From contig JAIRYN010000037.1 in assembly GCA_031267575.1 (NCBI GenBank), forward strand, positions 1 through 64,000: DNA of 64,000 nucleotides, in the 5' to 3' direction. Every line of letters starts with the position of its first letter. Position 1 is the first letter of the stretch. A program made the translations under genes and the position numbers. Source of the stretch: Synergistaceae bacterium. Its GTDB lineage: Bacteria > Synergistota > Synergistia > Synergistales > Aminobacteriaceae. Below, piece by piece: positions 15,992 through 63,840 of this stretch. Below the pieces are notes generated by a model. It did no database searches. It saw only the letters and a program-made list of their open reading frames with translations, and had not been told where the DNA came from.

Positions 15992-16249
15992 TCAGTCCGC
16001 CTTTACAGCGCGCTCGAAGGCCGTTTCGATTCGGGCTCGCAGCGTCGCCTCCAGGGCTCCTCGGTCCTGTATCTGGACCACGGCCGGAGCGTAACGCCGC
16101 GCGATTTCTCCCGCGATACGCTCGGTCCTTTCCTTGAAGATCGCCTCGTTTTGTCCGCCATACTCCAGAACATAAGAATCCGCGGGCGAAACCACCACCA
16201 TACAATCAGACGACTCCAATGTTCCCGCCTGAGCTTTTTTGAGCAACAC
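15992..16249 (-). CDS. citD: Citrate lyase acyl carrier protein (gamma subunit)
   Basis: Small acyl carrier subunit that bears the phosphoribosyl-dephospho-CoA arm on a serine. The 85 residues contain the family motif QAGTLESSDCMV near the N-terminus, with the modified Ser in the SSD group, followed by VQIQDRGAL and a C-terminal helix. The start is GTG at 16249 (a TTG follows at once). The upstream AAAGGA, 11 bases away, lies inside a 27-bp repeat that also stands before the CitMHS transporter and before the ABC ATPase gene at 62332. First gene of the citDEF operon; 13 bases separate it from citE. Confidence 0.93.
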   Translation of the reverse strand: MLLKKAQAGTLESSDCMVVVSPADSYVLEYGGQNEAIFKERTERIAGEIARRYAPAVVQIQDRGALEATLRARIETAFERAVKAD

Positions 16250-16255
16250 GCAATC

Positions 16256-16836
16256 ACCGATCCTTTCAGCGTACTAATACCTAAACACATTTTAGCGTTT
16301 TACAATAGCGTATCAAGTAGCAATATTGATGAATTATAGCTTATTTAGATACTATGTGTTGCCTACATATTTAAAAAGCATATACAAAACTTCATAGGTA
16401 CCTTCTTTAGAATTTGTCCAGATCATTCTCTAGATCATTCTTGAACGCAACTCTATCATAAAATACGTATTTTTTGCAGCTTGATTCTCATATAGAATAC
16501 TGTACTCTGTATGTAGAGTCAAGAATGATGGAAAAAGAACCGATGAGGAATCAGTAATTGCCACAAAAAAATTTTATTTTGTGGTAAATTTGTAGTAAAA
16601 TTTTATTTTGTAGTAAAATTTTAAATTTGTAATGAAGTTTAGTAATGAAGTTTGGGATTTTGAAGAGGGGTGAGCTCACTCAGAAGAGAATATTTTTCGG
16701 CGCTAAAGCGGTGCTCGTGGGATATTTCTTCGAGCTTTGTGAGACTTAGCTTTTTCTTTGGCTTTATAGTCGAAGAAATACTATGCGGAATGTATCTACT
16801 CATTATAAGTAGGTATTAGTACGCTGAAAGGATCGG
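16256..16836. mobile_element. Candidate inverted-repeat (MITE-like) element between citD and the citrate transporter
   Basis: The 598-base divergent intergenic region is bounded almost exactly by a 27-bp inverted repeat: the plus-strand copy at 16810-16836 contains GTACGCTGAAAGGATCGG, and its reverse complement lies at 16256-16284. Between are AT-rich sequence and TTTTATTTTGTGGTAAA-like repeats (16559-16650), with no gene. The 130 bases at the right side (16707-16836) recur at 62185-62322. The repeat supplies the Shine-Dalgarno AAAGGA to both flanking genes. It may be a mobile element that now provides leaders, or a conserved regulatory leader used twice; I favour the first because of the inverted arrangement and the solo end inside another operon. 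Confidence 0.5.
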
Positions 16837-16847
16837 ACCGGTATTTA

Positions 16848-18203
16848 ATGATGAATATTACAATCATTGCTTACGCGATGCTCATTGTTTTCATGTATGT
16901 CATTATGACGAAGAAAATGTCTCCGCTTACCACTCTTGTGTTTATTCCACTTGTCTTTTCGGTTATCGCCGTGCTTGCCGGAGTCGCTATCAGTGAGCGG
17001 GGAAACCCGGTCTCTATCGCCGAACTGGGAAAATTTGCCATTGATGGCATCAGAACGACCTCAGTTACGGGTATCATGTTGCTTTTCGCCATCTTGTATT
17101 TCGCGTTGATGTTGAACGCCGGATTGTTTGACCCAGTCACAAAGAGCATGATCCGTTTTGCCAAGGGAGACCCTGCCAGGATATTGGTGGCCACGGCCAT
17201 CGTCGCGGCCGCGGTTTCTTTGAACGGCGACGGTACCACGACGACTATGATCTGCTGCGCCGCTTTCATTCCCATCTATAAAAAACTCGGACTCAAAATG
17301 ATGAACCTGGGCGTCTTGCTGATCCTGCAAAACACGATCATGAACTTGCTGCCTTGGGGAGGCCCCACTGCCCGGGCTCTCAGCGTTCTCCATATCGAGG
17401 AGAACATCCTTCCCTACATCTGGCCTGGAATGCTCGCCGCCGCCCTCTATATGATTGGGGTTGGTTATTACCTCGGCCGTCAAGAACGAAAACGCCTCGG
17501 TATCACCACCCTCACGAACGAGGCCATCGACCAGCTCACCCAGGTCTCCGACCCGGAGGTCCTCGAATTGCGTCGCCCCAAAAACATCTGGATTAACTCG
17601 ATCATGACTATCGTTTTGCTGGGCCTTTTGGTCAAGGATTTTTTCCCGCCGGTGTTCCTCTTTATGACGGGTACAGTGCTGGCGCTCCTGATTAACTACC
17701 CCAACCTTAAGGAGCAGAGCCGTCGCATCGCCGATAACGCAGGTGACGCGGTGCAGGTAGTTATTTTGGTGTTCGCGGCCGGCCTCTTCATGGGGCTTTT
17801 CACGGGAACTGGCATGGCTACCGCTATAACCAAGAGTCTTGCTACCATCATTCCGGCCAGCTGGGGAGGATACTGGGGGCTCGTGGTGGCCGCTTTGTCC
17901 GCTCCGGGGACATTCTTCCTCTCCAACGACGCCTTCTACTATGGGGTGTTGCCGGTGCTCGCCGAGGCGGGGTATTCTTACGGCTTCACGCCCATGCAGA
18001 TGGCTGTAGCCTCTCTGATGGGGCAAGCGTTCCATTTGTTGAGTCCTCTAGTGGCGTTCATCTATCTTCTGCTCAAGTTAACCGACCTGGATATGGGGCA
18101 GTGGCAGAGAGAGTCTGCCAAATGGGCAATCGGGATATTCGTCATTTTCGTCGCCATTCTCATCCTGACCGGGGCAATGCCCTATCACATTCCTCAAGGC
18201 TAA
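16848..18203 (+). CDS. CitMHS-family citrate transporter
   Basis: Inner-membrane secondary transporter of citrate as a divalent metal complex or with protons. The 451 residues form about twelve helices with the family signatures: an N-terminal MTKKMSPLTTLVFIPLVF, the glycine-rich NGDGTTTTMICC re-entrant segment, LPWGGPTARA, and a second-half GTFFLSNDAFYYGVLP. It is divergent from citDEF, so uptake and cleavage of citrate are paired. Start at the first of two adjacent ATGs (16848/16851); the AAAGGA is 15 bases upstream within the 27-bp repeat. Substrate cation not predictable from the sequence. Confidence 0.92.
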   Translation: MMNITIIAYAMLIVFMYVIMTKKMSPLTTLVFIPLVFSVIAVLAGVAISERGNPVSIAELGKFAIDGIRTTSVTGIMLLFAILYFALMLNAGLFDPVTKSMIRFAKGDPARILVATAIVAAAVSLNGDGTTTTMICCAAFIPIYKKLGLKMMNLGVLLILQNTIMNLLPWGGPTARALSVLHIEENILPYIWPGMLAAALYMIGVGYYLGRQERKRLGITTLTNEAIDQLTQVSDPEVLELRRPKNIWINSIMTIVLLGLLVKDFFPPVFLFMTGTVLALLINYPNLKEQSRRIADNAGDAVQVVILVFAAGLFMGLFTGTGMATAITKSLATIIPASWGGYWGLVVAALSAPGTFFLSNDAFYYGVLPVLAEAGYSYGFTPMQMAVASLMGQAFHLLSPLVAFIYLLLKLTDLDMGQWQRESAKWAIGIFVIFVAILILTGAMPYHIPQG

Positions 18204-61935: not shown

Positions 61936-61990
61936 GTGCATCAGGCAGCGTAAATAAAGTTATACGTTTCCACAATAAGGAGGTGGGTCG

Positions 61991-62020
61991 ATGAAGGCAA
62001 AAATTACGATTGATTATTGA
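61991..62020 (+). pseudogene. Orphan start: strong RBS followed by nine codons
   Basis: AAGGAGGTGGGTCG precedes an ATG that reads MKAKITIDY and stops. This looks like the original start region of the ABC ATPase gene, now cut off from it by the inserted repeat sequence at 62185-62322; alternatively a leader peptide. Confidence 0.35.
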
Positions 62021-62128
62021 TTCTGGAGTCTGGTCGGTGGTTTATACGCGTTCCAATAGTTGCTGACGTTGCAGCTGAAAACCAAGACCGTATAGTGGCT
62101 ATTGCCCCGGACATCTGAACGTTTGTGT

Positions 62129-62149
62129 GTAGAGATCGTGTGTCTCTAC
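62129..62149. repeat. REP-like palindrome, copy 4 (short)
   Basis: GTAGAGA and TCTCTAC arms around TCGTGTG; a shortened relative of the copies at 7518, 13449 and 50565. Confidence 0.6.
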
Positions 62150-62184
62150 TGTGATGAAAATATTGTCGTAAATCAGGACTACAA

Positions 62185-62322
62185 CGGTGCTTGTGGAATA
62201 TTTCGGAAATATTTTTACGAGCTTTGCGAGATTCAGCTTTTCCTTTGACTTATAATTAAAGGAATACTATGCGAAATATATCTACTAGTTATGAGTAGGT
62301 ATTAGTACGCTGAAAGGATCGG
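62185..62322 (+). mobile_element. Solo end of the inverted-repeat element seen at the citrate locus
   Basis: About 130 bases align with 16707-16836 with a single gap and few substitutions, ending in the shared 27-bp repeat (62296-62322, containing GTACGCTGAAAGGATCGG). It interrupts the sugar ABC operon between the binding protein and the ATPase genes and supplies the AAAGGA used by the latter. A conserved hairpin ATCTACT/AGTAGGT precedes the repeat in both copies. Confidence 0.6.
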
Positions 62323-62331
62323 TGCGGCTGA

Positions 62332-63840
62332 ATGACCCCTGAAGACAAAGTTCCTCTTCTTCAAATGAAGGGGATAGTCAAAACTTTTCCTGGAGTTAAA
62401 GCCCTTAAGGGAGTGGATTTCGACGTAAGGGAAGGCGAAGTGCACGCGCTCATGGGTGAAAATGGCGCGGGCAAATCCACGTTGATGAAGTGCCTCATCG
62501 GCATTCACCCGCAAACGTCGGGAGAGATAATATTCAAGGGCAATCGCCTGGGACATTACAATACGTCTGACGCGCTGAAAATGGGAATTTCCATGATTCA
62601 TCAAGAACTGAGTCCCGTGCTACACCGACCCATTATGGAAAATATCTGGCTCGGACGCGAACCGCTAACAGGTCTAGGGTTGGTCGACCACGCGAAGATG
62701 GCTCAGATGACCAGGGATGTACTGAAGGTTATCGATTTGGACGTGGATCCGCGCACGCTGATGAGGGACCTCACAGTTGCCAAGATACAGATGGTCGAGA
62801 TCGCTAAAGCTATCTCGTACAACGCGGCGCTCATTATTATGGATGAACCGACGAGCGCGCTAGCGGAGAGCGAAGTGGCTCAACTTTTCAAGATAATCAA
62901 CAGGCTTCGCGACGAAGGTAAGGGCATCGTTTACATATCGCACAAGATGGACGAGATATTCAAGATAGCTGATCGCATCACGGTCCTTCGCGACGGGGAA
63001 TATGTGGGCACAGACAACGCGGCCAACACCACTATGGACCGAATGATCACTATGATGGTCGGGCGCTCTGTTTCCGACATGTTCCCCAAGATCTCCTGCG
63101 ATATCAGCGACGTGCACCTGGAGGTGAAAGGACTCCGCAATTCGCGGTTCTTTCACGATGTCTCATTCAGCGTGCGCAAGGGCGAGATATTGGGCATCGC
63201 GGGGCTTCTCGGTTCTGGAAGAACTGAGGTCATAGAGAGTATCTTCGGCATCAAGTCCCTGGACGCCGGAGAAATATTCATAGACGGACGCCGCGTCGAA
63301 ATAAAAGAACCGGCCGACGCGATAGCAAATGGGATGGCGTTTTTGACCGAGGACAGGCGGGAGACGGGCATATTTCCGATGCTCGATGTTCTGTTCAACA
63401 TGTTCATAGCGAGTATGGATCAGCACACCAACAAAGCCCAAATTCTGAATGACAGGTCGTCATTGAACGTTTGCAACGAATACATCAGCGTCATCAACGT
63501 CAAAACTCCGTCGCCTTACCAGAAGGTGGAAAATCTGTCCGGAGGTAATCAGCAAAAGGTTCTGGTCGCCCGCTGGCTTATGACGTCTCCGTCCATACTT
63601 TTTTTGGACGAGCCGACAAGGGGGATCGACGTTGGCGCGAAAGCCGAGATACACTCTATCATAAGTAAACTTGCGGGACAGGGCAAAAGTGTGATCATGG
63701 TCTCCTCGGAATTGCCGGAAGTCATTGGCATGAGCGACCGCATAATGGTCATGCACGAGGGAAGAGTGACGGGAATACTGGACAACAGTAAAAAACTGCA
63801 ACAGGAGGAGATTATGCGCTACGCCTCGGGGGTAGCATGA
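62332..63840 (+). CDS. Sugar ABC transporter ATPase (RbsA/MglA type)
   Basis: Cytoplasmic ATPase with two fused nucleotide-binding domains, 502 residues. First half: Walker A GENGAGKST, signature-like DLTVAKIQMVEIAKA, Walker B IIMDEPTSAL. Second half: degenerate Walker A GLLGSGRTEV, LSGGNQQKVLVARW, LFLDEPTRGIDVG, as usual in the ribose/galactose class. ATG 62332 is preceded by AAAGGA 13 bases away inside the 27-bp repeat. It pairs with the binding protein at 60942 and the permease that begins at 63910. Confidence 0.95.
   Translation: MTPEDKVPLLQMKGIVKTFPGVKALKGVDFDVREGEVHALMGENGAGKSTLMKCLIGIHPQTSGEIIFKGNRLGHYNTSDALKMGISMIHQELSPVLHRPIMENIWLGREPLTGLGLVDHAKMAQMTRDVLKVIDLDVDPRTLMRDLTVAKIQMVEIAKAISYNAALIIMDEPTSALAESEVAQLFKIINRLRDEGKGIVYISHKMDEIFKIADRITVLRDGEYVGTDNAANTTMDRMITMMVGRSVSDMFPKISCDISDVHLEVKGLRNSRFFHDVSFSVRKGEILGIAGLLGSGRTEVIESIFGIKSLDAGEIFIDGRRVEIKEPADAIANGMAFLTEDRRETGIFPMLDVLFNMFIASMDQHTNKAQILNDRSSLNVCNEYISVINVKTPSPYQKVENLSGGNQQKVLVARWLMTSPSILFLDEPTRGIDVGAKAEIHSIISKLAGQGKSVIMVSSELPEVIGMSDRIMVMHEGRVTGILDNSKKLQQEEIMRYASGVA

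Follow-up and report, generated by a model that had tools for sequence, protein, structure and literature searches.

The inverted repeat of a citrate locus in a Synergistaceae bacterium reads as two opposite insertions of an IS607-family right end with a putative replacement Shine-Dalgarno sequence

Insertion sequences of the IS607 family integrate without target duplication, and their ends are not inverted repeats. Published work gives their target as (G)GG with no further preference (PMC6188088), and the motifs of their TnpB proteins as GGG (PMC10711439) or as AGGAG or GAGGG (PMC11061315). The element described here shares with this family (IS607, IS1535, ISC1926) the domain order of TnpA, GG at the ends and in the target, the lack of duplication and a tnpB gene downstream, but it appears to target the Shine-Dalgarno (SD) type sequence RRRGG before start codons and its right end (RE) carries a putative replacement SD, whereas PMC6188088 gives (G)GG only. 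ISFba1-type systems, which have an IS607 TnpB with a RAGATH-18-derived reRNA, come near in their TnpB, in their SD-like target-adjacent motif (TAM, 5'-AGGAG or GAGGG) and in their structured right-end RNA; unlike them, our RE has no RAGATH-18 match and its RNA overlaps the 3' end of tnpB. As far as it was searched, the report on these systems draws no link to ribosome-binding sites (PMC11061315). The closest published idea is that of the IStrons, which combine a group I intron with IS200/IS605 or IS607 (PMC4227781); they also bear TnpB and their insertions are harmless to the host gene, but they splice out of the RNA, whereas the element described here has no intron and would replace the SD that is lost. 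MITEs and other short non-autonomous IS derivatives resemble the short, internally deleted copies that we found (a 105-bp copy before citD and a clade of 350-bp copies without SD), which probably moved in trans; in contrast to MITEs, the two ends here lack inverted-repeat symmetry and the target is not duplicated. In the titles and abstracts found among non-subscription papers for IS607 or TnpB together with SD or ribosome-binding site, neither SD targeting nor SD replacement is described.

We analysed a window of 64,000 nucleotides (the whole stretch of DNA presented here), in which the gap between citD and a citrate transporter gene is framed by two 27-nt arms (16257-16283 and 16810-16836). 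The arms are perfect complements spaced 526 nt apart and adjoin the gene starts, just outside the GTG of citD (16249) and the ATG of the transporter (16848). The originally predicted repeat is confirmed and is exact, and it is absent from dinucleotide shuffles (0 found); a third exact copy of the 27-mer lies at 62296-62322. The right arm had also been said to recur near 62185; together with ~90 nt of the sequence ahead of it, it does so at 85% identity, but with a true span of 62207-62322. The gene names proposed for the locus held, with CitD recognised by PF06857 and, slightly below the cut-off, by TIGR01608, and the transporter by a CitMHS match. The inner flanks of the two arms are unrelated, being a left end on one side and the 3' end of tnpB on the other, and therefore the two 27-mers are not the termini of one 580-bp unit.

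As judged from its relatives, the repeat is the RE of an IS607-family element with a serine transposase, TnpA, and an RNA-guided nuclease, TnpB. A transposon-derived origin had been proposed, and it is borne out: the sequence is repeated across the genome, and full-length relatives of ~1.79 kb in a sister genus encode the IS607 serine transposase. These elements run from a left end (LE), GG/TRACAACATAG (a slash marks the junction), through a 250-aa TnpA and an overlapping tnpB to the right end. TnpA scores 182.9 bits against NF033518 (IS607 transposase, cut-off 110) and carries PF00376 (MerR-type HTH, N-terminal) followed by PF00239 (serine recombinase); its relatives with a solved structure are the TnpA proteins of ISC1926 and IS1535. 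TnpB P0001 scores 117.4 bits against NF040570 (guided TnpB, cut-off 100); at most copies in the genome of the window only tnpB relics were located. The right arm of the relatives comprises the 3' end of tnpB and the right end of the element, with the TnpB C-terminus DRDYNGARGILLRALRDSALPCLI, a hairpin region and then GTACGCTGAAAGGATCGG. The two ends of the element are unrelated to each other and are not inverted repeats. GG stands at the termini and in the target as in the IS607 family (GG is the alignment point in 30 of 33 left junctions), and in the gene-linked copies the three final RE positions (CGG) are each conserved at 91%. At the citrate locus, citD is preceded by a complete element of 105 bp whose interior is deleted, and the transporter by a second, separate insertion that points the other way; a search with the LE model recovered no left end for the latter (Table 1). 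These comparisons identify the inverted repeat as the IS607 right end inserted twice, independently and in opposite directions, two opposite insertions being what makes it appear as an inverted repeat. An invertible promoter between recombination sites was considered and rejected, as the other copies are single-site and a separate insertion accounts for every copy; the left-half repeat at 16284-16357, considered as a promoter element, is the IS607 left end instead.

Table 1. Coordinates of the element-derived features and neighbouring genes in the window.
Feature	Position	Strand	Evidence or remark
Minimal IS607 deletion derivative in the citD leader, 105 bp	16257..16361	-	LE/RE pairing; LE model match G000:C37:16279-16360:-, 59.2 bits
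Left end within the citD-leader derivative	16284-16361	-	Abuts the final 27 bp of the right end
Left-junction GG of the citD-leader derivative	16362-16363		
Right-end terminus in the citD leader	16257..16283	-	Exact 27-mer
Putative replacement SD, AAAGGA, of the citD copy	16266-16261	-	11 nt ahead of GTG
citD, citrate lyase acyl carrier protein	15992..16249	-	PF06857 68.5 bits; TIGR01608 54.0 (cut-off 63.5); GTG 7 nt past RE end
IS607 right end (truncated element) in the citrate-transporter leader, ~140 bp	16697..16836	+	RE model 16720-16836, 138.1 bits; ~40 further copies by BLAST
AAAGGA of the transporter copy	16827-16832	+	15 nt ahead of ATG, longer spacing than usual
tnpB 3'-end relic, SGARGIFLRAL*DLAFSLAL*	16707..16769	+	Translation compared with DRDYNGARGILLRALRDSALPCLI of intact TnpB P0001
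Citrate transporter (CitMHS)	16848..18203	+	PF03600 114 bits; ATG 11 nt past RE end
Second right end in the window, before the ABC-transporter ATPase gene	62207..62322	+	RE model 131.1 bits; BLAST 85%
AAAGGA of the ABC-ATPase copy	62313-62318	+	
tnpB relic of the ABC-ATPase element, two stops	62008..62127	+	53% identity to TnpB residues 298-337
ABC-transporter ATPase gene	62332..63837	+	PF00005 162.6 bits; ATG 9 nt past RE end

BLAST against the bacterium's own genome gave 79 matches, ~40 of them to the right arm and nearly all terminating at the same GATCGG, and a covariance model of the RE gave 65 matches there, with ~66 unique RE 3' ends. Nearly all of these other copies carry a single 27-mer. 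The sequence was found in four genera of the same family, among draft and metagenome-type assemblies, with Synergistales bacteria PG1894_187 and MS502-76 as named records. Most own copies are decayed except for the RE, and more than 40 genes of this bacterium, including ribosomal-protein genes, start just past an RE sequence.

Some loci showed features of their own. One (L036, G000:C58) has two right ends ~1.8 kb apart, before rpmH and before a Jag/KhpB-like start, as read by eye. A right end precedes the htpG (Hsp90) gene both in our bacterium (L178) and in a different genus (L083, G028), through either an old shared insertion or independent hits at one SD. L264 (G000:C27:23900-26200) is a 1.1-kb element with a left end, a 290-aa frame containing TnpA and a right end, without an intact tnpB; it may supply the transposase that moves the short copies in trans. 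L037 and L038, in the same genome, hold C-terminal relics of a different TnpB between IS607 ends (DRDTNAAVNILRVGAS in L037), and L038 has an IS605-like hairpin, CACGACTTTAGTCGTG, in that position; their composition suggests nested or hybrid elements. In the window (61940-62322) the ABC-ATPase-side element retains a tnpA relic with AATAAGGAGGTGGGTCGATGAAGG, which codes for the RRWAD stretch of the HTH; this sequence, also present in many other relics, itself resembles a strong ribosome-binding site followed by ATG.

As counterparts of occupied loci, sister species provided empty sites, in which SD, spacer and ATG are uninterrupted and which the element splits exactly after the GG of the SD. Of the two traces of insertion that had been anticipated, empty sites were found and target duplication was absent. 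One site is empty in G022, CATCATATAGGAGG/TAAGCAAGCTATGG, and occupied in G004, with CATCATATAGGAGG to the left of the element and TAAGCAAGCTATGG to its right. Two others read ACAACTTTAAAGG/TGGGATCGTAATGG when empty and ACAACTTTAGAGG/element/TGGGATCGTAATGG when occupied, and GACAAAAAAGGGGG/TTATTACAGTATG when empty and GACAGAAAAGGGGG/element/TTATTACAGTATG when occupied; in two of these three clean cases the assembly breaks inside the element, so that the occupied locus is split over two contigs, whose ends were paired through the empty site. An acetate-kinase-like gene, identified by eye, has the empty site TTATAAGGGGG/TTTTTGTGAAGATG, compared on the right flank only, and at a permease site (L144/L051 vs L228) the right side agrees and the left side has extra bases. 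The comparison covers sister species and no same-genus relative, so the citD and transporter sites are outside it.

Aligned on GG (n = 30), the left junctions have purines at positions -5, -4 and -3 in 87, 90 and 97% of cases, followed by GG; this RRRGG logo is the core of the SD sequence. At the other border the RE finishes GAAAGGATCGG, after which come a short spacer (mode 7-10 nt) and the start codon. Among own REs with an intact AAAGGA, 44 of 54 have an ORF of at least 80 aa opening 3-20 nt downstream, compared with ~24% of random GG or RRGG sites put through the same test (p = 2e-18), a random-site value that is inflated by internal start codons; with ATG starts alone, the figures are 35 of 54 and 9%. 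In the relatives, 15 of 22 copies stand before an ORF start (p = 2e-5) and ~30% are not before an evident start. By rough gene calls in the window, a start follows only 4% of RRRGG sites and 9% of those reading AGGAG or GGAGG. Several of the copies failing the 80-aa test belong to short true genes (L34, L31, LysW). Family searches placed the true N-termini of L17, L34, L31, cysteinyl-tRNA synthetase, phosphofructokinase, Hsp90, TerD, TenA, acyl-CoA dehydrogenase, CitD and others just past the RE, so that rplQ, rpmH, rpmE and cysS are among the RE-led genes, together with a flagellar L-ring gene and transporters; overall their functions are unrelated. In our own reading of the upstream translation, the L17 copy lies behind the 3' end of rpoA.

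The AAAGGA of the RE terminus can base-pair with the UCCUUU at the end of canonical 16S rRNA, and in most copies it lies 9-14 nt ahead of the start. A leader and ribosome-binding segment shared by both citrate genes had been predicted, and the transposon-derived sequence does now form the leader of both, with an AAAGGA-bearing terminus before each of their starts. Across 54 gene-linked copies, the hexamer is off-consensus at 5 of 324 sites (1.5%) and the 16 columns preceding it at 80 of 864 (9.3%; p = 4e-7). It is also predicted to be more open than the remaining right end (mean unpaired 0.61 vs 0.38). Predicted anti-SD pairing amounts to -6.5 kcal/mol for the AAAGGA and to -9 to -11.6 kcal/mol for the original sites (five examples, two of them reconstructed); the replacement SD thus pairs more weakly than the original, and it lies 4 nt further upstream. 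A subfamily of eight copies (L166, L168, L170, L171, L173-L176), mostly ~350-bp derivatives, has right ends AAAGAATCGG or AAAAAATCGG that lack the SD, with a predicted pairing of -2.1 kcal/mol. It is monophyletic in the tree, its left flanks are similarly RRRGG, and no recognised gene was found downstream of the eight copies, where the two ORFs of any note (118 and 79 aa) gave no family match. This clade is a natural control, though one that represents a single evolutionary event, and it suggests that AAAGGA is not required for movement. Another IS607 family in genus g17 (L232, L235) has SD-like left flanks, GGAGTGGGGG and CAAAAGGAGG, and a right end, TAACGG, without SD, and serves as a comparison case for the idea of a replacement SD.

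Our main reading, to which we give a probability of roughly 85%, is that the IS607 element lands in SD sequences and replaces them, and that the RE is then kept by selection. The element identity, the junctions, the empty sites, the position and bias relative to start codons and the conservation are the observations behind it. TnpA would exchange the GG of the element circle with the GG on the 3' side of an SD, RRRGG being preferred, and the element would thereby come to sit between the SD of a gene and its start codon. The insertion (105 to ~1800 bp today) would part the gene from its own SD and the RE would supply AAAGGA instead, which would pair with the 16S rRNA end, so that translation would start from the replacement SD and the gene would remain translatable. 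Insertions before essential genes would be tolerated, with the RE preserved by selection and the remainder decaying. At the citrate locus, two such events would have taken place, before citD (now 105 bp) and before the divergent transporter. Use of the new SD by ribosomes, and survival of the insertions owing to it, are what we infer from the sequences, as are the respective shares of target choice and later selection in the position bias. Since IS607 is reported to use (G)GG and the published motifs of its TnpB are AGGAG, GAGGG or GGG, retention at SD-like sites assisted by TnpB is a plausible source of the extra target preference.

Survivorship alone, in which the element inserts at any (G)GG, copies at SDs persist since the RE became the SD, and the others are purged or decayed, is the strongest competitor, and we hold it to be unlikely, if worth serious attention. 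It accords with the published (G)GG target, with the decay of most own copies apart from the RE, and with the SD-less clade, whose flanks are RRRGG yet precede no recognised gene starts. It fits poorly with the relatives that have intact elements, where the same 15 of 22 copies already stand before an ORF start, with the RRR that the left flanks show beyond GG, and with the published IS607 TnpB motifs AGGAG, GAGGG or GGG.

Covariation supports a secondary structure in the 117-nt RE, with 97% of cells paired and 30 cells changed on both sides, compared with 7 in shuffles; no slid version approaches this. The structure overlaps the 3' end of tnpB and extends to the element border, and it is best read as the element's own putative TnpB guide-RNA (omega/reRNA) scaffold. 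Rfam gave no family at the gathering threshold in the window; for the RE, a search relaxed as far as E = 5 gave no plausible one, and within that limit the RAGATH-18 model matched neither the window nor any of four element loci. A covarying structure before more than 40 genes is also what a conserved, riboswitch-like cis-regulatory leader controlling a regulon would look like, an alternative that the original prediction had tied to co-regulated genes. The genes that follow it are, however, functionally unrelated (ribosomal proteins, CysRS, flagellar L-ring, transporters, Hsp90), no Rfam family matches it at the thresholds just given, the same RNA forms the 3' end of intact tnpA-tnpB elements and it is missing from the empty sites, which makes such a leader very improbable. 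A 580-bp MITE with 27-bp terminal inverted repeats, the form first proposed for this gap on the strength of the exact repeat flanking it, can hardly be credited against nearly all other copies carrying one 27-mer, inner sequences that are different ends of two separate IS607 insertions, a citD copy complete in 105 bp, and empty sites without target duplication.

Landing in and replacement of SDs, our preferred reading, admits a bolder extension that we regard as a long shot: a transposon lineage would have evolved the SD as landing site together with a spare SD at its right end, which would let the host survive insertions before essential genes, and any TnpB still made could bind or cut dozens of RE-led mRNA leaders as an accidental regulon. 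TnpB could act on these leaders because each RE-led mRNA would begin with a guide-RNA scaffold, with the gene start as guide.

For annotation, the results are a warning that a structured leader recurring in front of many genes may be the end of a transposon and not a riboswitch. If the main reading is true, it would explain the SD-like look of the published IS607 TnpB motifs (AGGAG, GAGGG, GGG), and these copies would be natural material on how mobile elements rewire the translation of essential genes. It would also describe a transposon strategy absent from the literature searched, in which the target is the sequence before most genes and the damage is repaired by a copy that the element carries.
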